NCBI GenBank assembly: GCA_028696515.1
Contig: JAQVGX010000003.1
Location: 1 to 43,433, forward strand
DNA from: Candidatus Dojkabacteria bacterium
GTDB lineage: Bacteria > Patescibacteriota > Dojkabacteria > JAHIVN01
Reading direction: 5' to 3'
DNA length: 43,433 bases
Numbering within the stretch: the first letter of the stretch is position 1; every line of letters begins with the position of its first letter. Shown here one piece after another: positions 31,651-43,433 of this stretch. The notes beneath the pieces were generated by a model. It had not been told where the DNA came from, made no database searches, and saw only the letters and a program-made list of their open reading frames with translations. Made by a program: the position numbers and the translations under genes.

Positions 31651-32757
31651 CTACTTGATATCATTCTTTGGTTCATACTCTGCAAACATTCCGCCCCATT
31701 TCGAATTTTTCATCCAATTTTTGAATATCCCCTTCTCTTTTACATTCCATCTATAGTAATCATGATAAACCTCTGACCACAGAATAGGAATATTTACAAT
31801 AGGTGTATGAAAAACAAGTTTCTGCAAGAATTTAGTAGGACCATACCAACCAAGCCAAGCTAGTTTCTTGTGCATAGTTGACCCCACCTCGAATTTCCAA
31901 TTTTCTTTTGCAACATCAGTATCACCTACTATATCTATCTCCGAAGGATTTCCTACCCCCAAACCCTGCTCATGAGCCATTTTAATGTACTTAATCTTCA
32001 TCGGATCGAAGCCCATCATCTTCGCAGATACCGCATCAATTGCGACCTGATCACGGCTGGCAATGATAACATCCTTTTCTTCCGGAATAAGAGTACGCGG
32101 ACCCGGTCCATTCCCGGACATTGTTCCGTCCATCACGGCAAAAACTCCTGAGTGAATTTCTTTCTGAATTGCCAAAAGATCTACAAGAGTTTCATGGATC
32201 CAAGTATGAGTATAGTGTCGTCTTTTAGTCAAGAGACCTCCAAAGGCATTTTTCATAGCCCCTGTTGTTGTAGTATAGATATGACACTTAACAGTGGGCA
32301 GATGAACGATGCTCTTGTCCTTGAAGTACTCAGGGATACTTATTCCCTCTGGAAATATCTTATCCAGAACATTCATCTTAGCTTTTGGTTTATAAACTTC
32401 CCATTTGATATCCTCTTTCTTAAAATTGAAAAGAACTGGAATATCATACTTTTTAAAAACTCCCTTATACTTATTCAAGTCCTCTCCTTTAAAGGCATTC
32501 GTTACTACTGTCTGATTCTGCACACACGTGACCTTGCTATAATTTGCATTCTTCAACGCCCTGGCAACTCCTTCCAGCTGCCAAGGAGTAGTATTTGCTG
32601 AGGGCATCGGATAGTGCCAGGAGATATTATCCTTAAGAATCACTTCTTTATCCTTTGGCATCTCTTGTTCGAAATCGGCCAACTGCATAAGCTTTTCATA
32701 ATCATCCAGCACTGTTTCCGGCTTAGTCCTTAGAACAGCTACTTTTGGTTTAGTCAT
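31651..32757 (-). CDS. DUF362 domain-containing protein
   Basis: LKDNISWHYPMPSANTTPWQLEGVARALK; STVKCHIYTTTTGAMKNAFGGLL-type motif; DGTMSGNGPGPRT; IIASRDQVAIDAVSAKMMGFDP. Confidence 0.82.
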   Translation of the reverse strand: MTKPKVAVLRTKPETVLDDYEKLMQLADFEQEMPKDKEVILKDNISWHYPMPSANTTPWQLEGVARALKNANYSKVTCVQNQTVVTNAFKGEDLNKYKGVFKKYDIPVLFNFKKEDIKWEVYKPKAKMNVLDKIFPEGISIPEYFKDKSIVHLPTVKCHIYTTTTGAMKNAFGGLLTKRRHYTHTWIHETLVDLLAIQKEIHSGVFAVMDGTMSGNGPGPRTLIPEEKDVIIASRDQVAIDAVSAKMMGFDPMKIKYIKMAHEQGLGVGNPSEIDIVGDTDVAKENWKFEVGSTMHKKLAWLGWYGPTKFLQKLVFHTPIVNIPILWSEVYHDYYRWNVKEKGIFKNWMKNSKWGGMFAEYEPKNDIK

Positions 32758-32783: not shown

Positions 32784-32847
32784 GTAGAAACAATTGTTAC
32801 ACTATTGTAATACAATTGTTAAACAATAGTGTAACAATTGTTTCTAC
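32784..32847. repeat. Array A: five 8-mers at 11-bp period inside perfect 25-bp inverted arms
   Basis: Units start at 32790, 32801, 32812, 32823 and 32834: ACAATTGT-tac-ACTATTGT-aat-ACAATTGT-taa-ACAATAGT-gta-ACAATTGT. Arms gtagaaacaattgttacactattgt / acaatagtgtaacaattgtttctac. Confidence 0.95.
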
Positions 32848-33710
32848 TCAAAAAAATATAAGAGTCCCATAGACACTAGCCCCCACATTATTACAACGAA
32901 GGCCAGAGGAAAATCTGTCAGCAAAGTTTCGGTCGGGCTTTCTCCCATATCCTTCTTATGGACTAAATACAGATATCTAAATATTCCATAAATCACTAGT
33001 GGGATAGTGAAAATAAAGTACTGGGTATGAAAAGTATTAAATGTGTAAAAGACATAGCTGACTAGCACAGCCGGAATAATGATATTTGACATTTGATCCA
33101 GCATTTCGACACTATAATGTTCCAATACTTTTCGTTTTTCTCCCCCATTCTTGTTAATCTCAACAAATTCTTGCCTTCTTTTCATAATAGCTAAGAACAA
33201 AGTCAGTAGAAAGGTAATTACTAGAAACCAAGAAGAAATGGTAACGTCTATAACTACTGCTCCCCCGACAGCTCGAAGAACAAAACCAATAGCAACTAAA
33301 ATAATATCAACAATCACAATATGTTTGAAAACGTATGAGTATAACAAATTGGTAATAACATATACTAAAAGGATCAAGGCAAACATGGGATGGATAACAA
33401 GTGCAGTCAGAATCGAAGAAGCCCCTAGAACTACACTTATCAAAAGTGCGACTCCCTTATTAAGCTCGCCAGAGGCAATCGGCCTGAATTTCTTCTTTGG
33501 ATGCTTTCGATCGTTTTCATAGTCGATTATGTCGTTTATGATATAAATACTGCTTGCTGTAAATGAGAAAAGGAAAAATGCGCAGATAGTTAATACAAGC
33601 GCACGAATATTTATAAATTCAGCCGCAAAAACAAGGGCCGGAAAAACGAAGATGTTTTTCACCCACTGCTTTGGACGAAGAGCTTTGATTATTGCTTTGA
33701 ATGTAGTCAT
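32844..33710 (-). CDS. UbiA-family prenyltransferase, decaprenyl-phosphate phosphoribosyltransferase-like
   Basis: LRPKQWVKNIFVFPAL and SSIYIINDIIDYENDRKHPKKKFRPIASGEL (DxxxD-type motif), polytopic. Confidence 0.86.
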   Translation of the reverse strand: MTTFKAIIKALRPKQWVKNIFVFPALVFAAEFINIRALVLTICAFFLFSFTASSIYIINDIIDYENDRKHPKKKFRPIASGELNKGVALLISVVLGASSILTALVIHPMFALILLVYVITNLLYSYVFKHIVIVDIILVAIGFVLRAVGGAVVIDVTISSWFLVITFLLTLFLAIMKRRQEFVEINKNGGEKRKVLEHYSVEMLDQMSNIIIPAVLVSYVFYTFNTFHTQYFIFTIPLVIYGIFRYLYLVHKKDMGESPTETLLTDFPLAFVVIMWGLVSMGLLYFFE

Positions 33711-33828
33711 ATGAAATAATATCTAGCGTTTAAAACACAAGTTCGATTCAACAATTTTAAGCTACGTGATTTTACAACAAAAAAAAGTTTTTGGAAATTT
33801 AAAATAAATCACCTTTTATGGAAACAAT

Positions 33829-35214
33829 ATGACCGTATCAATTGTAGGAACCGGATATGTAGGATTGACAACCGGAGCTGTTCTGGCTGCTGCAGGTAAT
33901 AAGGTATACTGTATCGATGTAGATGCCAAGAAAATTGAAACCATTCAGAGCGGGAAGTCCCATTTCTACGAACCCGGCCTAGACAAACTCATAGCAGAGG
34001 GTATCAAAAGCAAAAAGTTAATTCCCACAACAAGATACAGGAATGCTATCCCATACAGCGACATCGCCATTATATGCGTTGGAACCCCGTCCAAGGGGGA
34101 TGGAAGTGTCGACCTTTCTTATATTTACTCCGCAGGAATTTCTATTCACCAGTATATGAAAGATGAGCTTGTCATAGCCCAAAAAAGCACAGTCCCAGTC
34201 GGGACAGGAAGAAAATTGGAAAGAATTCTCAGAAATGGCAATAAAAGCAAAAAGTTTAATGTCGTAAGTTGTCCAGAATTCCTAGCGGAGGGATCTGCGG
34301 TTTTTGATACGCTGAATATGGATAGAATAGTCGTTGGAGGAGATTCAGAAAAAGCTAAGCAAAAAATGATAACACTGCTTGAATCTATTGATAAATTCTC
34401 AAGTAAAATAAATACAAAGGAACTCACAAAATATTCAACAGTCTACAAGAATAAGGTCATATATCACAACAAAACTCCTTTTAAAGATAGAGTCATCTCT
34501 GTTGGTCTTGAAAGCGCAGAGCTCATCAAGGTGACAGCAAACGCATTTCTCACTACCAAAATTTCATTTGCGAACTCCATAGCTAGAATATGTGATCAGA
34601 CAGGAGCAGATATCCTTGAGGTCATGGAAGGAGTCGGCAGAGATGAAAGAATCGGAAAAGCATTTCTTTACGCAGGACTGGGATGGGGCGGCGGCTGTTT
34701 TCCAAAAGATACCGCAGGACTTATATATCATGCAGATGAAGTCGGTTTTGATTTCAAGATTCTAAAAGCAGTAGTAGACCTCAACAATTCTCAAGTCCTT
34801 TATGTAATAAGAAAAGTTCACAAAATTCTAGGTGCAGATCTCGAAGGAAAAAAGATTAGCGTACTTGGCCTGTCATTTAAACCCGGAACTAGTGATGTAA
34901 GAATTTCTCCTTCAATCAGACTCGTCAATAACCTCATCAGAAAGGGAGCAAAGGTCACAGTATACGATCCGAAGGCACTTCAGGAAGCAAAAGCCGACAT
35001 TGATGGCAGCGTTCATTATGCAAATAATGTTGATGAAGCTGTCAAAGGCTCAGAACTAGCAATTCTAGCTACTGACTGGCCTGAGTTAGTAGACATTGAT
35101 TTTAAGAAGCTGAAAAAGATATTTAAAAGGCCAAATCTACTGGACGCAAGAAATAAGTGGGACAAGGAGCAAGCTATAAAATTTGGCTATAAATACTTTG
35201 GGATAGGCAGATGA
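33829..35214 (+). CDS. UDP-glucose/GDP-mannose dehydrogenase family protein
   Basis: VSIVGTGYVGLTTGAVLAAAGNKVYCIDVD, CPEFLAEGSA, AELIKVTANAFLTTKISFANS, GWGGGCFPKDT, VLGLSFKPGTSDVR. Confidence 0.95.
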   Translation: MTVSIVGTGYVGLTTGAVLAAAGNKVYCIDVDAKKIETIQSGKSHFYEPGLDKLIAEGIKSKKLIPTTRYRNAIPYSDIAIICVGTPSKGDGSVDLSYIYSAGISIHQYMKDELVIAQKSTVPVGTGRKLERILRNGNKSKKFNVVSCPEFLAEGSAVFDTLNMDRIVVGGDSEKAKQKMITLLESIDKFSSKINTKELTKYSTVYKNKVIYHNKTPFKDRVISVGLESAELIKVTANAFLTTKISFANSIARICDQTGADILEVMEGVGRDERIGKAFLYAGLGWGGGCFPKDTAGLIYHADEVGFDFKILKAVVDLNNSQVLYVIRKVHKILGADLEGKKISVLGLSFKPGTSDVRISPSIRLVNNLIRKGAKVTVYDPKALQEAKADIDGSVHYANNVDEAVKGSELAILATDWPELVDIDFKKLKKIFKRPNLLDARNKWDKEQAIKFGYKYFGIGR

Positions 35215-36272
35215 AAATATTAGTAACAGGTACTGCAGGATTCATAGGATCATTTTTGACTAGAGCACTTATAAGTCTAGATCATAGTGTCGTCGGAATA
35301 GATAACTTTCATCCGTATTATTCAAAAAAAGCTAAGAATTTCAACCTTGACCTTATAAGATTCCACTCTGGACAAGATCTAAAAGAATTCACTGGTAAAT
35401 CTATTTCCAAGATTTACAGCAAATTATCTGAGAAGACGGAGACCAAAAAGAGCAAGGGATATTTTAAGTTTATCGAATGTGATATTCGAAAATACAGATC
35501 TCTTGCAAAGATAATAAAACAAGAGAGAATAACTCACATTGTTCACCTTGCCGCAATGGCCGGAGTCCCCTACTCTATAGAGAAACCTAGAGAATATGTA
35601 GAGGTTAATATTGATGGGACTACAAATCTTTTGGACATAGCCGTAAAAAATAAAATTAGTAATTTTATTTTTGCTTCTTCTTCATCAGTCTATGGTGCCT
35701 CACAAAAAGTGCCTTTCATAGAAACACAGAATGTTGATAATCCTATATCTCCTTACGCTGCTACTAAGCGAATGGGAGAAATTCTTTGCTATACCTTCAG
35801 CTATCTCTATCTACTTCCTATCACATGTCTTCGGTTTTTCACAGTTTATGGTCCACTTCAAAGACCATACGGCATGGCTATTCAAAAATTTATCAGACAA
35901 ACGGACAAAGGCGAACCTATGACTGTTTACGGAGACGGGACGATGTCTCGCGATTATACATATATCGATGATACTGTTCGTGGAATAATATCTGCCCTGA
36001 ACAAACCCCAAAGATATCAAATCTACAATCTCGGTAATTCACATCCGGTCTCACTCAAAAGGCTGACAGCACTAATAACTAAATATATGCAGAAAGGTAA
36101 AACGGAATACCTCGATAAGCCCTCCACAGAAGTGCCTACTACCTACGCAAATATCAGCAAAGCTCAAAAAGAGCTCTCGTATAAACCTGAAGTAACAATT
36201 GAACCAGGACTGAAAAGACAAATCGAAATTTACAAATCAATGCCAAAGTGGTATAAGGAGCTTGAAGTATGA
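35211..36272 (+). CDS. NAD-dependent epimerase/dehydratase (UDP-glucuronate 4-epimerase-like)
   Basis: ILVTGTAGFIGSFLTRALI, HLAAMAGVPYSIEKPREYVEVNIDGTTNLLD, SSSSVYG, SPYAATKRMGE. Confidence 0.93.
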   Translation: MKILVTGTAGFIGSFLTRALISLDHSVVGIDNFHPYYSKKAKNFNLDLIRFHSGQDLKEFTGKSISKIYSKLSEKTETKKSKGYFKFIECDIRKYRSLAKIIKQERITHIVHLAAMAGVPYSIEKPREYVEVNIDGTTNLLDIAVKNKISNFIFASSSSVYGASQKVPFIETQNVDNPISPYAATKRMGEILCYTFSYLYLLPITCLRFFTVYGPLQRPYGMAIQKFIRQTDKGEPMTVYGDGTMSRDYTYIDDTVRGIISALNKPQRYQIYNLGNSHPVSLKRLTALITKYMQKGKTEYLDKPSTEVPTTYANISKAQKELSYKPEVTIEPGLKRQIEIYKSMPKWYKELEV

Positions 36273-36415
36273 AGACATTTATAAACATTACAATTTTATC
36301 CCTTACCCTGATATATCTTCTTGAGATCATGTTTTTCGACAAGAGAATCACTGCCAATCTAATTCTTGCATTATGCATAACAATTATTTACAAAATTTTC
36401 AAAAATGATAGATAA
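36269..36415 (+). CDS. Small two-TM membrane protein (48 aa)
   Basis: Translated by me: MKTFINITILSLTLIYLLEIMFFDKRITANLILALCITIIYKIFKNDR*; overlaps the end of the epimerase gene by 4 bp (ATGA) and the start of the next ORF. Confidence 0.55.
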   Translation: MKTFINITILSLTLIYLLEIMFFDKRITANLILALCITIIYKIFKNDR

Positions 36416-36689
36416 GCTCATACTATTCTCCTGCATTTTAGCCGCATTCACAATTTTATATATGAGCATCAGGGAAATTCTCACAGAGTCTAAATGGAAG
36501 CATATTTCAAAGGATCTAAGTTTAGCTCTTTCAGTATCTATTGTGTCCATATCTATTATTTATGCCGGCATTGACTCTATAGGACCTTTAGCTCTGCTTA
36601 TATCATCGTTGGCAGGACTAATATTATTTTTAACCTCTCTAACGATTCTAAAAGAAGATGGATCTTATAAATCTCTGGAAAAAAAGTAA
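36405..36689 (+). CDS. Small hydrophobic membrane protein
   Basis: 94 aa with about 3 TM segments; tightly packed with neighbouring plus-strand genes. Confidence 0.55.
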   Translation: MIDKLILFSCILAAFTILYMSIREILTESKWKHISKDLSLALSVSIVSISIIYAGIDSIGPLALLISSLAGLILFLTSLTILKEDGSYKSLEKK

Positions 36690-37080
36690 GGTACTAAACA
36701 TCATAATACTTGGGATATACTCAAAATATTATTTTTTACTAATTATTTGTCTTTCCATCCTGACGATCATACTGAGCTTCGGTTTTGGACTCATAACAGC
36801 TTTCAGGATAGTATTCGGAACAATATATAGCCTTTTCTTGCCTGGATTTATGATCAGCCATATTCTATTTAAGGTTGGGAAAATAGGATACGTAGAAAGA
36901 GGTGTTTTAAGCTTTGTACTATCAATCTCAATTATCCCGCTTGTCATTTTCTACTTCAATCTAGCTGGTGTAAGAATAACTTCATTTAGTACTTTTTTTA
37001 TCATTCTTTTGACCTGTGTTCTTTCCGGAGTGATAGTATATTTCAAAAATAAGAAACCCAAGAGACAACAAAAACAGTGA
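36658..37080 (+). CDS. DUF1616-like membrane protein
   Basis: 140 aa; ITAFRIVFGTIYSLFLPGFMISHILF...ERGVLSFVLSISIIPLVIFYFNLAGVRI pattern. Confidence 0.6.
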   Translation: MDLINLWKKSKVLNIIILGIYSKYYFLLIICLSILTIILSFGFGLITAFRIVFGTIYSLFLPGFMISHILFKVGKIGYVERGVLSFVLSISIIPLVIFYFNLAGVRITSFSTFFIILLTCVLSGVIVYFKNKKPKRQQKQ

Positions 37081-37683
37081 CGAGAATATCCCAACTAAAA
37101 TTGTTCCTCCAGCTTCTTTAGATTGATAATCCAACCTATCAAAAATCACTTTGATCAAACTCCTGGACTTATAAATTGGCACTAGATTCAGGTTTCCTGC
37201 TTGTTCTTTCCCATCAAAGAAAAGCTGCCCTCCCATCAAATCATGATGTTTCAAATACCGGAACAGAATTCTTTCATCTTGCGGAAATCGTATATAGTAA
37301 ATCCGACCTTGTGAATTCTCAATAGCCTCGAATCTGTAGTTTAACACGTCACATTTATTTACAAGAATCGATTGATCCAATTTGGCTACAGTTAACTCAT
37401 TATGGTCTTTATTTAGTATCTGAATCGGATTACTTGGGATCTGACAATCCTCACTCTGGAGATCAAACCCTGCAAAATTATCTCCTTCAGCGACGATCAT
37501 TTGCATTATCAAGTGCTCACTACTGTCTATGATTTCATATTTTTCTTCGTCAAATCTCTGGGGAACAAAAACTTGGCTCTTATCATATTCCTCCCGCACA
37601 AAGAGATATACGAAGGGAGAGCTAACTAAAAGGATAGTTAGAATTGATAAAGTTATTTTTTTCAAACTCTCTTTCTTCTTCAT
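36982..37683 (-). CDS. Two-TM protein of unknown function with extracytoplasmic domain
   Basis: 233 aa; N-terminal TM ITLSILTILLVSSPFVYLFV, C-terminal TM TILVGIFSSLFLLSLGFLIFEIYY; 4-bp overlap with upstream DUF2142 gene. Confidence 0.65.
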   Translation of the reverse strand: MKKKESLKKITLSILTILLVSSPFVYLFVREEYDKSQVFVPQRFDEEKYEIIDSSEHLIMQMIVAEGDNFAGFDLQSEDCQIPSNPIQILNKDHNELTVAKLDQSILVNKCDVLNYRFEAIENSQGRIYYIRFPQDERILFRYLKHHDLMGGQLFFDGKEQAGNLNLVPIYKSRSLIKVIFDRLDYQSKEAGGTILVGIFSSLFLLSLGFLIFEIYYHSGKNTGQKNDKKSTK

Positions 37684-39065
37684 AAATAGTAACGCTGTGT
37701 CAACATAGCTAAACAGAATACGTTAAAGAATACTGCAAACAGGATAATCAGTTTATAGAATACATCTTTGAATTTGACAGGGATTACACTTTTCAGACCA
37801 AGAAGTCCCATAAGTACAAATGACAAAAGCATCGGGAAATAATACCTGCCCTGAGTAGGGAAATTCTCGTAGCATCTACTTATGTAGCCGTTAAAATACA
37901 GATAGATATAGAATAATTCTAAAGGAATAACTGGAGTTAACAAAAGGAAATGAACTGTTCTTAAGGTTTTTCTTTTAAGTCCGAATACAAACCAATATAG
38001 GAAAAAAACAATAGACAATAGGAACACAAAAGATAAGAATAGGTAAACTGCCCGGGGAAGCTGAGTGTCAAGCCAGCCGAAATTGCCGGCAAAGCCTTTG
38101 AATATAAGCACATACCTAGGATACAGCAAAGCTTTTAAATAACTAAGTATGGAGAGTCCCCTGCATGTGGCTTCCGAGCTGAAATAATTATCTGTAATGA
38201 TACCTGTCTTCCCGGAAGGGTCTGGAAACAAAGATCCAAGTCCCAAAAGATTCCTGGCGAAATACAAGACAGGAATGATCAAAGGAGCGAAGAATGAACT
38301 CATCTTATCGATGCTGAAATTCTTACGAATCTTCCACAAAACCAGGACAAGGACAATAGGGAAAAAGGCTAGAAATTGGGCTTTCGTGAGAATTCCAACA
38401 ACTGACCACATCGATATCTTCAAAAGATCATCAGATTTCAACTCGTTGGATTTGTAAATTTTGAGCAAGTAATAAAGCGCAGCGAAGAATGAGGTAAAAA
38501 GAAATACATCACTGTTGATACCGGAGTTGCCAAACATAAATGCCGGCCAGAGCGAAACCAGTAGAGCTGCCGCTGCTCTAAACCATCGATTCTTACTAAA
38601 CAAAGATGCTGCTTTAAAAGCAAACAAATAATTAAAAATAATAAAAATGAGATTGGAAAAACGGACGATATACAATACTCTCAGAATTCCAAACGACCCA
38701 AAGGCCAAAAGAAATATTGCTCCCCAAAGATAATATAGCGGCGGATGATTATAAATATGAGCCGCATTGAAACCTTCTATCTGAGTCGGCTCCGGATTTT
38801 CAAAGTCGAAGTGATATGTTCGATTATGAAATACTCTATCAGCCTGTGTCTGTTCTATCAGATTTTCTATAGCATCAGAATTCTCAAGAATTTCATTATC
38901 CTGAATATCGTTTTTGTTCGGCAGCCTTTTGTTTTCGGCAATAAATTGCATATAACGCAAGTGAGCCTGTTCATCAGGAGTCTGCAGAGGAGGAATAACA
39001 AAGATCCAGAGAACGCTCAAGCTAACGAGCAATCCAAGCGATATAAATTTTAACCTCTTCTCCAT
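37680..39065 (-). CDS. DUF2142-like polytopic membrane protein
   Basis: FVIPPLQTPDEQAHLRYMQFIAEN...; HPPLYYLWGAIFLL; polytopic, with PTQGRYYFPMLLSFVLMGLLGL. Confidence 0.82.
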   Translation of the reverse strand: MEKRLKFISLGLLVSLSVLWIFVIPPLQTPDEQAHLRYMQFIAENKRLPNKNDIQDNEILENSDAIENLIEQTQADRVFHNRTYHFDFENPEPTQIEGFNAAHIYNHPPLYYLWGAIFLLAFGSFGILRVLYIVRFSNLIFIIFNYLFAFKAASLFSKNRWFRAAAALLVSLWPAFMFGNSGINSDVFLFTSFFAALYYLLKIYKSNELKSDDLLKISMWSVVGILTKAQFLAFFPIVLVLVLWKIRKNFSIDKMSSFFAPLIIPVLYFARNLLGLGSLFPDPSGKTGIITDNYFSSEATCRGLSILSYLKALLYPRYVLIFKGFAGNFGWLDTQLPRAVYLFLSFVFLLSIVFFLYWFVFGLKRKTLRTVHFLLLTPVIPLELFYIYLYFNGYISRCYENFPTQGRYYFPMLLSFVLMGLLGLKSVIPVKFKDVFYKLIILFAVFFNVFCLAMLTQRYYL

Positions 39066-39112
39066 TCTATAAATTGCTGATCTAAATGATTATACTCAAC
39101 AGGAACTTACAA

Positions 39113-39173
39113 GGGAAGGTACACGATTGTTAAACTATAGTAATACAATTGTAAAACAATCGTGTACCTTCCC
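39113..39173. repeat. Array B: four 8-mers at 11-bp period inside perfect 18-bp inverted arms
   Basis: Units at 39123, 39134, 39145 and 39156: ACGATTGT-taa-ACTATAGT-aat-ACAATTGT-aaa-ACAATCGT. Arms gggaaggtacacgattgt / acaatcgtgtaccttccc. Confidence 0.93.
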
Positions 39174-39229
39174 CGCTTGACATTCTACTCACGATCACCG
39201 ATAATACCGATCGACTTAGTCTATGATGT

Positions 39230-39640
39230 ATGAAACTAACAAACAGATGTCAGTACGCTCTTCTAGCCATGCTAACACTAACAAAGGCCTACAAATCAGA
39301 CAGGAATAAATTCTACACGACAAAAAGAATCGCACAAGCCAATGATATCCCAAAAGAATTTCTGGAAAAAATAGTTGCCCTGCTTTCCAACTGTGGGCTT
39401 GTTGAATCGCAAAAGGGTGTAGCTGGAGGCTTAAGACTTATAAAAAACCCTGCAAAAATATCAATCGCAGAAATAATCCGGGAATTCGACGGACCACTTG
39501 CTCCGGTAAGCTGTGTAAGTAAGTACAAGTATGAGACGTGCCCACTCGAAAGATCAAAAAGTTTAACATTTCTGTTCAAGAGAATAAGAAACATTCAGTT
39601 TAAAATTCTTTCAAAGACAACCCTGGCTGATTTGGTATAA
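39230..39640 (+). CDS. Rrf2-family transcriptional regulator
   Basis: MKLTNRCQYALLAMLTLTKAY...TTKRIAQANDIPKEFLEKIVALLSNCGLVESQKGVAGGLRLIKNPAKISIAEIIREFDGPLAPVSC. Confidence 0.92.
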   Translation: MKLTNRCQYALLAMLTLTKAYKSDRNKFYTTKRIAQANDIPKEFLEKIVALLSNCGLVESQKGVAGGLRLIKNPAKISIAEIIREFDGPLAPVSCVSKYKYETCPLERSKSLTFLFKRIRNIQFKILSKTTLADLV

Positions 39641-39662
39641 AAAGACATATTTTAATTTTTAA

Positions 39663-39896
39663 TTGTCTGTTATGAAAAAGCTAACAATAGAAATCGCGGA
39701 TAACGAATTCTCAACACTTGAGAAAAGAGTAAAAGATAAAAAAGAGTTTGATTCTGTAGAAGCCTACATGCAGGACATCATATCCCAAGTTGTTGCAAGA
39801 TTAAAAGATGAAGATGGTGGAGATGAGGAGAAATTCTCAAAAGAAGATGAAGAAAAAGTGAAAGAGAGACTTAGAAGCTTAGGATATTTGGACTAG
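39663..39896 (+). CDS. Small acidic protein, possibly RHH/CopG-like, ending LRSLGYLD
   Basis: 77 aa; KKLTIEIADNEFSTLEKRVKDKKEFDSVEAYMQDIISQVV; immediately follows the Rrf2 gene. Confidence 0.55.
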   Translation: MSVMKKLTIEIADNEFSTLEKRVKDKKEFDSVEAYMQDIISQVVARLKDEDGGDEEKFSKEDEEKVKERLRSLGYLD

Positions 39897-39905
39897 GGAG
39901 CACAA

Positions 39906-39946
39906 ACAACTGTTGAACAATAGTTTACCAATCGTTCAACAATTAC
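39906..39946. repeat. Array C: four 8-mers at 11-bp period
   Basis: Units at 39906, 39917, 39928 and 39939: ACAACTGT-tga-ACAATAGT-tta-CCAATCGT-tca-ACAATTAC; starts 10 bp after a TAG stop. Confidence 0.8.
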
Positions 39947-39974
39947 AGGACTTTACTTGTTAACACTACCGTCC

Positions 39975-41129
39975 ATGATCCAACCTCACGGGGGCAAACT
40001 CGTTCAGCAAATTATCAAAGACAAGGAAGAAAAAACTTATTGGCTGAAAAAATCAAAAGAGCTCATAAAACTAAAACTTGACGAAGAACAGATAAAAGAA
40101 ATCAAGAATGTTGCTAGAGGACTATATAGCCCTCTCAGTGGATATATGAAGAAGGAGGATTTTGAATCTGTAACCGAAAATCTCAAGCTGGCAAATGGGA
40201 CTGTATGGCCGATTCCGATCGCACTTGATATACCATCAACAATCGCAAAACAGGTCCATATCGGCAGAAGAATAGCGTTAATGGATTCTAAAAACAAACC
40301 TGTTGCAATTCTAATAGTAGAAGACAAGTATAAGTTTGACAAGAAGAAAACCGCTAGAAAGGTTTTTGGGACATCAGATCCAGAACACCCGGGAGTCGCA
40401 GAAATGTTGGCAAGGAAAGACACATTAATCGGAGGTGATATCCTGCTGATCGATAATTCTAAAAAGACCTTCAACAACTACAATCTTGATCCTGTTGAAA
40501 CACGTATTCTCTTTGCAGAAAAGAAATGGACAACAGTAGTAGGCTTCCAGACCAGAAATGCCCCGCACAGAGCTCATGAATATCTTCAGAAGTGCGCACT
40601 CGAGAATGTTGATGGTCTCTTCATAAACCCTGTAATAGGCAAAAAGAAGGATGGCGATTACACCGATAAAGCTATTATCAATTCTTATAATATTTTAATC
40701 GAGAATTATTTCAATAAAGATAAAGTTGTCCTGTCGATATTACCTCTCAAGATGAGATATGCAGGACCAAGAGAAGCTGTAATGCATGCTATCATCCGAA
40801 AAAACTTTGGCTGCACACACTTTGTTGTTGGAAGAGATCATGCAGGAGTCGGAGACTATTATGATCCATATGCAGCACAGAACATTTTCGACGAGCTTCC
40901 CGATCTCGGAATAAAGATCCTGAAATACGAGAATGCATTTTACTGTGAGATTTGTAATAATATGGCTACAGACAAGACCTGCTCTCATGATGACAAATTT
41001 AAAGTCAAGCCTAGCGGTACGATGATAAGGGAAAAAATACGAAACAAAGAAAGAATCCCTGAGGAAATTGTCAGGCCGGAGGTGATGAAGGTGCTGCAGG
41101 AGATGAAGGAGGTGTTTGTAAAGCAGTAG
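39975..41129 (+). CDS. sat: Sulfate adenylyltransferase (ATP sulfurylase)
   Basis: MIQPHGGKLVQQ, QTRNAPHRAHEYLQKCALE, MRYAGPREAVMHAIIRKNFGCTHFVVGRDHAGVG, SGTMIREKI. The ORF track start at 39957 (TTG) is an alternative. Confidence 0.95.
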   Translation: MIQPHGGKLVQQIIKDKEEKTYWLKKSKELIKLKLDEEQIKEIKNVARGLYSPLSGYMKKEDFESVTENLKLANGTVWPIPIALDIPSTIAKQVHIGRRIALMDSKNKPVAILIVEDKYKFDKKKTARKVFGTSDPEHPGVAEMLARKDTLIGGDILLIDNSKKTFNNYNLDPVETRILFAEKKWTTVVGFQTRNAPHRAHEYLQKCALENVDGLFINPVIGKKKDGDYTDKAIINSYNILIENYFNKDKVVLSILPLKMRYAGPREAVMHAIIRKNFGCTHFVVGRDHAGVGDYYDPYAAQNIFDELPDLGIKILKYENAFYCEICNNMATDKTCSHDDKFKVKPSGTMIREKIRNKERIPEEIVRPEVMKVLQEMKEVFVKQ

Positions 41130-41133
41130 TGGA

Positions 41134-41196
41134 ACAATTGTAATGCAATAGTAATACGATTGTATAACAATAGGTCAACAATGGTTCAACGCAAGT
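41134..41196. repeat. Array D: six 8-mers at 11-bp period, decaying toward the 3' end
   Basis: Units at 41134, 41145, 41156, 41167, 41178 and 41189: ACAATTGT, GCAATAGT, ACGATTGT, ACAATAGG, ACAATGGT, ACGCAAGT; starts 5 bp after the sat stop. Confidence 0.85.
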
Positions 41197-41220
41197 AATT
41201 CACTTATTAAATACAACTTA

Positions 41221-41784
41221 ATGCAAAACGCTACAATTTACATAGTCTCCGGCCTGCCAAGATCGGGAACATCCATGATGATGAAAATATTAACCGATGG
41301 CGGACTGGAAGCTTTGGTAGATAACCTTAGAAAGCCAGACGATGACAACCCAAAAGGCTACTTTGAGTACAAGCCTGCTATGAAACTGCACAAGGATAAT
41401 TCCTGGCTGGGTCTGGCTGTCGGCAAGGCGGTCAAGATCATGGTAAATTTTACAGAATTTCTTCCGGATGACTATCACTACAAGATAATACTCATAAGAC
41501 GGGATCTGGATGAGATTCTCGCTTCCCAGCAGATCATGCTCAAAGAAGAAGATAAAAGAGTTGATGATATAGTAAGAAAAATCTTTACTCGAGACGTCGA
41601 AAAAGCAAAAAGAATTGCAAAAGAGAGAGAGAATATCGAGATGCTCGAAGTGTGGTATCCAGATGTTGTGAGGAATCCAGGACACGAGATCGAGAGAATA
41701 TACAGTTTCCTTGAATTGGATCTAGATAAAGATAAAATGCTTGAGGCAGTAGACCCAAAGCTTTATAGGAATAAGAAGAAGTGA
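41221..41784 (+). CDS. Sulfotransferase-family protein (PAPS-binding P-loop)
   Basis: IYIVSGLPRSGTSMMMKILTDGG phosphosulfate-binding loop; YKIILIRRDLDEILASQQIM. Confidence 0.8.
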   Translation: MQNATIYIVSGLPRSGTSMMMKILTDGGLEALVDNLRKPDDDNPKGYFEYKPAMKLHKDNSWLGLAVGKAVKIMVNFTEFLPDDYHYKIILIRRDLDEILASQQIMLKEEDKRVDDIVRKIFTRDVEKAKRIAKERENIEMLEVWYPDVVRNPGHEIERIYSFLELDLDKDKMLEAVDPKLYRNKKK

Positions 41785-41792
41785 CAGTTCAT

Positions 41793-41855
41793 ACAATCGT
41801 CCTACGGTCGTAGAACAATAGTTAAACGATTGTATTACAATTGTAAAACTATAGT
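41793..41855. repeat. Array E: six 8-mers at 11-bp period
   Basis: Units at 41793, 41804, 41815, 41826, 41837 and 41848: ACAATCGT, ACGGTCGT, ACAATAGT, ACGATTGT, ACAATTGT, ACTATAGT; starts 9 bp after the sulfotransferase TGA and ends 12 bp before the cysC ATG. Confidence 0.92.
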
Positions 41856-41866
41856 TTGGAAATCGC

Positions 41867-42478
41867 ATGCTCCCTAAATCACAAAACATAACCAAAATAG
41901 AACAAAGAATCACAAAACAAGACAAGGAAAAACTGCTTGGGCAAAAAGGAGCCGTTTACTGGATGACAGGACTATCAGGTTCTGGTAAATCGACCATAGC
42001 TGTTGAAGTCGAAAGAATTCTGTATGAACAAGACAAGCTGGTCACAGTTCTTGATGGTGATAATGTAAGATACGGTCTGAATGCTGACCTCGGTTTTTCA
42101 GAAGAAGATAGGAGGGAGAACTTGAGGAGAATTGCTGAAGTAGCTAAGCTATTTGCCGAGAACGGAATCATAGTAATCACGTCATTCATTTCACCAACCA
42201 AGGCTTCGCGCAAAAAGGCAAGGCAAATAATTTCTCAATCTTCAGACTTTCATGAAATCTACGTCAAGTGCAGACTAACGGAATGTGAGAAACGAGATCC
42301 CAAAGGGTTATATAAAAAGGCTCGAACAGGAGAGATAAAAGAATTTACAGGTATAGACTCACCTTTCGAGGAACCGGAGAACGCAGAGTTGGTGATAGAG
42401 ACTGACAGCGAGAATATTGACAAAAGTGTACAAAAGCTGCTGGAATATATAAAAAGGACCAGCATAACAACCGTATAA
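41867..42478 (+). CDS. cysC: Adenylyl-sulfate kinase (APS kinase)
   Basis: VYWMTGLSGSGKSTIAVEVERIL, VLDGDNVRYGLNADLGFSEEDRRENLRRIAEVAKLFAENGIIVITSFISP. Confidence 0.96.
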   Translation: MLPKSQNITKIEQRITKQDKEKLLGQKGAVYWMTGLSGSGKSTIAVEVERILYEQDKLVTVLDGDNVRYGLNADLGFSEEDRRENLRRIAEVAKLFAENGIIVITSFISPTKASRKKARQIISQSSDFHEIYVKCRLTECEKRDPKGLYKKARTGEIKEFTGIDSPFEEPENAELVIETDSENIDKSVQKLLEYIKRTSITTV

Positions 42479-42496
42479 CTATTGTTCAACAATCGT
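42467..42496. repeat. Array F: three 8-mers at 11-bp period spanning two abutting convergent stop codons
   Basis: Units at 42467, 42478 and 42489: ACAACCGT-ata-ACTATTGT-tca-ACAATCGT. The cysC TAA (42476-42478) and the opposing TAG (42479-42481) lie inside. Confidence 0.85.
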
Positions 42497-42874
42497 TCGC
42501 CGGCCTCTCCTCCCCAGGTAGCCAATATAATTATTCAGCTTCACACTCAAGTTTCTTATTTCGCTGTTCACAGTTTCAAACTCACTCTCCGTGATATACC
42601 CAAGATCAGTAGCAGCTTGAACACAGAAGAATATTTCAGACAACGAACCCCGTGCGATAAAACAGAACCTCCTCTGATCGTTCGGAGTAAACTTCCCATT
42701 TCCTTCAGCGATATTTGCACCGACAGAAATGACTGCCCTGGTTAACTGACTGGACAAGTTAAATTTCTCTTTATCCGGAAACTTTTCGCTTAAATTGTAA
42801 ATCGTTTTTACGAGTCTTCTCGCTAACTGATAAACCTCCAGCTGGTCTAGCTTGTAGTGCTTTTGAGTAGGCAT
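42479..42874 (-). CDS. Four-helix bundle protein (23S rRNA intervening-sequence / S23 family)
   Basis: LDQLEVYQLARRLVKTIYNLSEKFPDKEKFNLSSQLTRAVISVGANIAEGNGKFTPNDQRRFCFIARGSLSE; the MPTQKHYKL start is preferred over the ORF track start at 42940, which would begin inside array G. Confidence 0.9.
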   Translation of the reverse strand: MPTQKHYKLDQLEVYQLARRLVKTIYNLSEKFPDKEKFNLSSQLTRAVISVGANIAEGNGKFTPNDQRRFCFIARGSLSEIFFCVQAATDLGYITESEFETVNSEIRNLSVKLNNYIGYLGRRGRRTIVEQ

Positions 42875-42925
42875 AGCTATTACAAAGAGCACAAATAAAT
42901 AAACTTCTGGGGGATATGGGGTTGA

Positions 42926-42977
42926 GCAATAGTATAACAATTGTAGAACGATTGTTCAACAATCGTATGACAATCGT
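42926..42977. repeat. Array G: five 8-mers at 11-bp period
   Basis: Units at 42926, 42937, 42948, 42959 and 42970: GCAATAGT, ACAATTGT, ACGATTGT, ACAATCGT, ACAATCGT; ends 3 bp before the stop codon of the next minus-strand gene. Confidence 0.92.
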
Positions 42978-42980
42978 GTC

Positions 42981-43433
42981 CTACCGCTCCTGGGTAAAAT
43001 AAGTCAGGTTCAGCCCTGCTGCCTTGACCTCACTTCTAAGCGAAAAAATCTTATACATGGTTCTAACCCTTTGTGTTGTATTCTGCACGTCCGGATCTAT
43101 GTCATAATCAACAAGCAGCCACGCAAGGTTGCCTTTCATTCCGTATCTAGTAATCCCGGTCCAGCTTACAGGCTGTTCATCGTAGAATGGGACCAAAGAC
43201 TTCAGATCATCAACCGTTGGCTCATCGTCAAACAGAAGAAGTATCATGCCGTCTTCATAAGCGGCGTTGTCGACGATATAGTTTACCTTCTCTACTCTCT
43301 CTTTTATACTTGAAAAATGATCTTCATAGTAAATCTCTGCATTTGCTGTTAGAGTTGTCAACTGATCATAAACAGCCTGTCCTGCACAAGTAGTACCTCC
43401 CCAGTATCTCTGAGCAAAAACTGTTCTATCCCA
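42981..43433 (-). CDS. Hypothetical protein, 5' end outside window
   Basis: Reading frame stays open to the window edge (...WDRTVFAQRYWGGTTCAGQAVYDQLTTLTANAEIYYEDHF...), so the listed ATG at 43361 is probably internal. Confidence 0.6.
   Translation of the reverse strand, partial: WDRTVFAQRYWGGTTCAGQAVYDQLTTLTANAEIYYEDHFSSIKERVEKVNYIVDNAAYEDGMILLLFDDEPTVDDLKSLVPFYDEQPVSWTGITRYGMKGNLAWLLVDYDIDPDVQNTTQRVRTMYKIFSLRSEVKAAGLNLTYFTQER

Follow-up and report, generated by a model that had tools for sequence, protein, structure and literature searches.

The window analysed here is a 43,433-nt stretch of DNA, one contig of a 1.64-Mb patescibacterial metagenome-assembled genome (MAG; 128 contigs, G000), in which seven short arrays of a nearly palindromic 8-bp unit with 3-bp spacers are present between positions 32784 and 42977. 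Array 1 (32790–32841, five units) is located between a UbiA gene on the minus strand (stop at 32844) and a DUF362 gene (start at 32757), ~6 kb from a sulfate-activation cluster. At the cluster, a minus-strand DUF2142 gene is followed by array 2 (39123–39163, four units), which separates the divergently oriented promoters of DUF2142 and of a CymR-like regulator of the Rrf2 family (39230–39640, plus strand). A 77-aa orphan open reading frame (ORF; 39663–39896, plus strand) comes next, and array 3 (39906–39935, three units, two with one mismatch) separates it from the ATP sulfurylase gene (sat; 39957–41129, plus strand). Array 4 (41134–41185, five units) begins 4 nt past the sat stop codon and ends 35 nt before a gene for a sulfotransferase-family protein (41221–41784, plus strand); array 5 (41793–41855, six units) begins 8 nt past the stop codon of the latter and ends 11 nt before the APS kinase gene (cysC; 41867–42478, plus strand). 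Array 6 (42467–42496, three units) spans the 3′ ends of cysC and a convergent gene of the four-helix-bundle, 23S rRNA IVP family (42479–42940, minus strand), which has arrays on both sides; array 7 (42926–42977, five units) is upstream of this gene and 3 nt after the stop codon of a further minus-strand ORF (42981–43361). The arrays themselves are not assigned to a strand. ORFs were called by length, so that distances to start codons are approximate and distances to stop codons are firm.

Re-reading of the window located all seven arrays where the original prediction had placed them, with a period of exactly 11 bp and no phase slip. Its total of 33 units became 31 with our array boundaries, and its 24 exact matches to AC[AGT]ATNGT and seven copies of ACAATTGT were recovered on re-counting. 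Its description of the arrays as intergenic needs one correction, since array 6 overlaps the final codons of two convergent reading frames, those of APS kinase and of the four-helix-bundle protein. A feature absent from that description is that arrays 1 and 2, each taken as a whole, are inverted repeats with perfect arms extending into the flanks; array 2 is flanked by the 10-bp inverted repeat GGGAAGGTAC/GTACCTTCCC.

The grammar of the unit was defined from a logo of 130 units, A117 C126 n A124 T120 n G129 T125 (A 90%, C 97%, A 95%, T 92%, G 99%, T 96%), in which positions 3 and 6 and the spacer are free, giving the consensus AC(A/t/g)AT(T/a/c)GT. The base preferences at positions 3 and 6 mirror each other, and the two positions vary independently within a unit (47 complementary pairs, 48.5 expected). 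When the units were oriented by the upstream gene, no significant strand bias was detected: position 3 mirrors the complement of position 6 (p 0.06), and spacer base 1 mirrors the complement of spacer base 3 (p 0.10).

The exact three-unit pattern was found 12 times genome-wide, compared with no matches for a reversed control pattern, and when up to three mismatches were allowed the numbers were 46 and 1. Fourteen arrays were scored in 1.37 Mb of the genome and none in three Markov-shuffled copies, which places the arrays far above chance expectation. Seven of the 14 fall in this 10-kb stretch, around one regulator (six of the window's arrays reach the cut-off of the list, and array 3, counted as the seventh, is just below it). 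In the same 1.37 Mb, pairs of exact units were found at 11, 22, 33, and 44 bp (23, 18, 8, and 3 pairs, respectively), no other spacing was preferred, and the reversed control motif showed no preference for any of these four distances. Isolated units outside arrays were no commoner than the control motif. The absence of enrichment of isolated units, together with pairing only in the 11-bp phase, indicates that the element is the array rather than the 8-bp word.

Among 58 relatives, the exact pattern was found only in G001, a sister species of the same genus. The conservation data come from two species, both represented by MAG assemblies. All 11 of the strong G001 arrays (score ≥6) are in gaps where G000 also holds an array, and two weaker ones are likewise in shared gaps (cysS|lysS and SerHydrolase|TrmB), while two weak arrays, in the mnmA and ksgA gaps, have no G000 counterpart. 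The flanking orthologues of the two species are mostly 65–90% identical. Comparison of the arrays in the best register gave an identity of 93% (212/228) for core positions and 52% (of 157) for free positions; because the register was picked to maximise agreement, both values are upper estimates, and the contrast between them is still large. The number of units differs between the species in some gaps, with five in G000 and eight in G001 in the UbiA gap, and four and three, respectively, in the gap of array 2. A wider distribution in the phylum was sought and rejected, since only one of 380 patescibacterial genomes, that of the window itself, was positive.

A neutral intergenic minisatellite, generated by slippage and retained by chance, would account for the variable number of units (as in the UbiA gap), and comparable arrays in Clostridia do resemble expanding ones, with neighbouring units sharing letters at 0.50–0.60 compared with 0.26–0.29 expected. 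In this genus, however, neighbouring units are alike only at the chance level (0.36 vs 0.37 expected, position 3), which argues that the arrays are not recent duplications. Moreover, mutations spare six of the eleven positions symmetrically, and the positions of the arrays are kept across species. The minisatellite explanation was already disfavoured on these grounds, and we regard it as improbable. The view in the original prediction that the arrays are not a simple satellite is borne out by the lack of excess likeness between neighbours, and its alternative of a mobile or expanding intergenic repeat, which fits the Clostridia arrays, finds no support in a genus where the arrays occupy orthologous positions and neighbouring units are unlike. 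We read the pattern as that expected if purifying selection acts on the double-stranded DNA at six symmetrically placed base pairs, with the free positions randomised by time.

Conservation of the core only, strand symmetry, the fixed 11-bp phase, and the lack of enrichment of isolated units are best explained by sites for a dimeric protein. We are therefore inclined, by a cautious judgement from comparative sequence data, to regard the arrays as rows of double-stranded DNA sites that would be bound cooperatively by a dimeric protein, about one dimer per helical turn. One dimer of a sequence-specific protein would occupy each 8-bp AC(A/t/g)AT(T/a/c)GT unit, matching its two-fold symmetry; with a pitch of 11 bp, consecutive dimers would face almost the same side of the helix, favoring cooperative binding, with three or more sites being required. 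The arrays of this genus are few, most of them located within operons and at gene 3′ ends, where a bound row might block or punctuate transcription or mark a local domain. We infer the binding of a protein, its dimeric and cooperative nature, and the effect of a bound row from the pattern; cooperative binding of a dimeric protein to phased sites, which the original prediction had raised as one hypothesis, is accordingly the best-supported idea for the core conservation, symmetry, and phase, with a binder that has candidate status. Little is known of gene regulation or operon marking in Patescibacteria, and literature searches for ACAATTGT or for arrays of this kind found nothing relevant. Since position and core appear to be kept by selection while the rest drifts, a 41-bp bait should fetch its own protein.

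Array 2 differs in kind from the other arrays, as in both species it is flanked by a pair of divergent promoters. In G000 it ends 13 nt upstream of a sigma-70-like Rrf2 promoter, TTGACA-N17-GATAAT (39177–39205, plus strand), and in G001 an array is found 18 nt upstream of the same hexamers with the same spacing; it is also upstream of a weaker leftward TATAAT. A row bound at this site could control both the sulfate-activation cluster and the Rrf2 regulator itself. The product of the regulator gene matches Rrf2 (4.6e-30) and the CymR structure 2y75 (1.1e-13), and scores under the CymR equivalog cut-off (75 vs 195 bits). G000 and G001 have both the Rrf2 gene and the arrays, and G002, a member of the same family, has neither. 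All candidate binders were chosen by neighbourhood. The place of the Rrf2 gene, its co-occurrence with the arrays, and the presence of an array at the promoter of the gene itself make this CymR-like protein the leading candidate and, provided that a protein binds at all, the most likely binder, an assignment that we put forward tentatively. If it does bind, it would represent an Rrf2 protein acting on several phased sites in an array, a mode of action that the literature cited below does not describe for the family; if it does not, there would be a new DNA-binding protein to be found.

Several observations weigh against such rows of protein sites, or against this binder. The described operators of Rrf2 proteins (CymR, HypR/SifR, and NsrR) share dyad symmetry with the units, and a CymR-like gene of a sulfur cluster does adjoin array 2, but these operators are single dyads of 19–23 bp, such as the 19-bp TGTAA-N9-TTACA or a 23-bp site, rather than 11-bp arrays (PMC9218516, PMC9338935). 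The array logo does not fit this form, as TGT..ACA across one unit spans 20 bp instead of 19 bp. In addition, no Rrf2 was detected in three genomes rich in arrays (G058, G060, and G062), and its role as a universal binder was rejected. The placing of the arrays is also unlike that of usual operators: 17 of 19 codirectional arrays begin −12 to +13 nt from the upstream stop codon, several leave merely 6–35 nt to the next start codon, too short for a promoter behind the array, and three lie between convergent genes. One of the two outliers among the 19 is due to the 77-aa gene, which was missed by the ORF cut-off (true distance, 7 nt), and the other is the ClpC gap (~46 nt by PCMT alignment). Outside the window, arrays are located in the holB|gyrB, DegT|FemAB, FemAB|FemAB, PCMT|ClpC, SerHydrolase|TrmB, and other gaps, and the genes that flank arrays are too mixed (gyrB, FemAB, ClpC, KsgA, cysS) for a tidy regulon. 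Finally, true hairpins are formed by a subset of the arrays, one of which (holB|gyrB) shows compensatory changes.

These features bring forward the main rival explanation, a lineage-specific extragenic palindrome following stop codons, similar to repetitive extragenic palindromic (REP) elements and bacterial interspersed mosaic elements (BIMEs), without a dedicated regulator. Such an element could act in the transcript, by forming a 3′ hairpin, by attenuation, or by protecting the mRNA, or it could dock a protein of general function, a nucleoid protein or gyrase, for example; both such sites and such proteins are known for BIMEs (PMC2817692). The stop-codon placing and the use of all gap orientations fit this explanation, and so do the arrays in the UbiA, gyrB, DegT|FemAB, ClpC, FakA, and SerHydrolase|TrmB gaps, which lie within inverted repeats or are themselves inverted repeats. 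The stem in the holB|gyrB gap is a 20-bp helix kept between the species, with six doubly compensated pairs. On the other side, the free positions in arrays of at least five units are complementary no more often than chance predicts (combined p 0.43), and flanking inverted repeats are confined to a few gaps, which drive their significance (permutation p 0.02); a general RNA or DNA hairpin was thus rejected. Array 2 is upstream of both promoters and hence outside either leader, and neither the conservation of the core alone in unpaired arrays nor the strand symmetry is what an RNA stem needs. Correction of near-palindromes by template switching would also yield such stems, which makes them weak evidence for a role in RNA. 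Like REPs and BIMEs, the arrays consist of extragenic palindromic units, located after genes and not at promoters only; they differ in the 11-bp pitch, the 8-bp core, the lack of a general stem-loop, and a copy number of ~14, whereas REPs usually exceed 100 per genome (PMC2817692). Taken together, a REP-like role at gene ends appears unlikely, although it deserves serious attention. An orientation bias of the terminator or operator type was looked for and dropped, as none was found across all fetched loci. The earlier suggestion of an RNA-processing or termination element may hold for some arrays, given the 3′-end positions and the few true hairpins, and cannot be general. A side observation concerns locus L295 (8265–8365), where the PCMT/ClpC array is inside the perfect 16-bp inverted repeat GCTAGGCGGGAGTGAG.

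Among known systems with tandem sites, the ribbon-helix-helix dimers MetJ, Arc, and ParR read short palindromes in tandem, and their operators are composed of variable (pseudo-)palindromic sites at a fixed pitch, bound by cooperative dimers. The arrays resemble these operators in their short symmetric sites, tandem arrangement, and fixed pitch. MetJ boxes, however, abut at 8 bp, compared with the 11-bp pitch found here, and ParR iterons form a plasmid centromere, whereas the arrays occupy many chromosomal gaps at stop codons. PHO-box operators (PhoB and the cyanobacterial SphR) consist of 7–8 bp boxes with the same 11-bp pitch, but are asymmetric and located at promoters, in contrast to the palindromic arrays, which are mostly at 3′ ends. 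The second candidate binder is the 77-aa orphan protein, which might act as a ribbon-helix-helix repressor with one dimer per palindrome and sites about one turn apart. Its gene shares an operon with Rrf2 and was found, among the 58 relatives, in this genus only, being confined to the same two genomes; the protein begins with MKKLTIEI, followed by two predicted helices in a possible ribbon-helix-helix topology, and ends with KERLRSLGYLD. Neither Pfam nor PDB sequence searches gave a ribbon-helix-helix match, and the structural model, which is of low confidence (pLDDT 64), is without a strand and has no meaningful structural match, so that no ribbon-helix-helix protein was found by these approaches. 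The assignment was dropped; we consider it improbable, and the 77-aa protein a weaker candidate than Rrf2.

Similar arrays were found in other phyla. A four-unit scan of GTDB genomes, which was steered by the motif itself, identified at least 116 stretches, many of them from a few MAGs; the groups represented include Clostridia, Bacteroidota, Synergistaceae, and Omnitrophota. The Clostridia and Bacteroidota arrays share the AC-N-AT-N-GT core and the pitch with those of the window. Clostridia units vary at positions 3, 6, and 10 (mid-spacer) and differ in having a fixed T-N-A spacer and like neighbours, a sign of recent duplication; from their sequences, they look like expanding minisatellites. 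The Bacteroidales arrays differ in forming two-armed hairpins, which were found in two MAGs with four plus four units. In an evenly drawn set of 396 Bacteroidota genomes, the pattern was present in the seed genome only and the reversed control in two, indicating that the pattern is sporadic outside this genus; a Bacteroidota-wide trait was rejected, as was a phage origin (six matches in viral contigs, seven for the reversed control). The likeness across phyla may stem from common ancestry, from binders of a common kind, or from chance. That one unrecognised family of dimeric, filament-forming proteins reads AC-N-AT-N-GT per 11 bp across distant phyla is a long shot; if true, the arrays would be a new kind of chromosomal docking row rather than separate local repeats. 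The hairpins in the two Bacteroidales MAGs are dispersed and ~90 bp long (L057, L120, and L113 in RUG12409; L076, L093, and L147 in UBA3724), with about four 11-bp units per arm and genome-specific spacers. At four loci of the Clostridia MAG JAQUGH (L061, L074, L100, and L103), the arrays adjoin a period-8 tandem repeat, (GTTGGTCA)n, and the two together make up mosaic repeats between genes.

An IVP-family gene with an array on either side was found in the window (42479–42940), in the sister species, and in two Clostridia; the loci outside the window are L024 (230–619), L105 (111–509), and L159 (2207–2581). A mobile element might accordingly carry the four-helix-bundle gene, with the arrays as its ends or its target sites. 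This seemed promising with four IVP genes and was dropped when 26 of 30 IVP loci proved to have no array in the fetched flanks, with two more having one only at a distance. Most arrays also have no IVP gene beside them, and their positions are old, which makes such an element very improbable. Twelve IVP-family genes are present in the 1.6-Mb G000 genome, compared with none in 14 control genomes. The combination of ATP sulfurylase, APS kinase, and a sulfotransferase (39957–42478) was observed in a patescibacterium, and the presence of sulfate-activation genes with a sulfotransferase suggests sulfation of a surface polymer.

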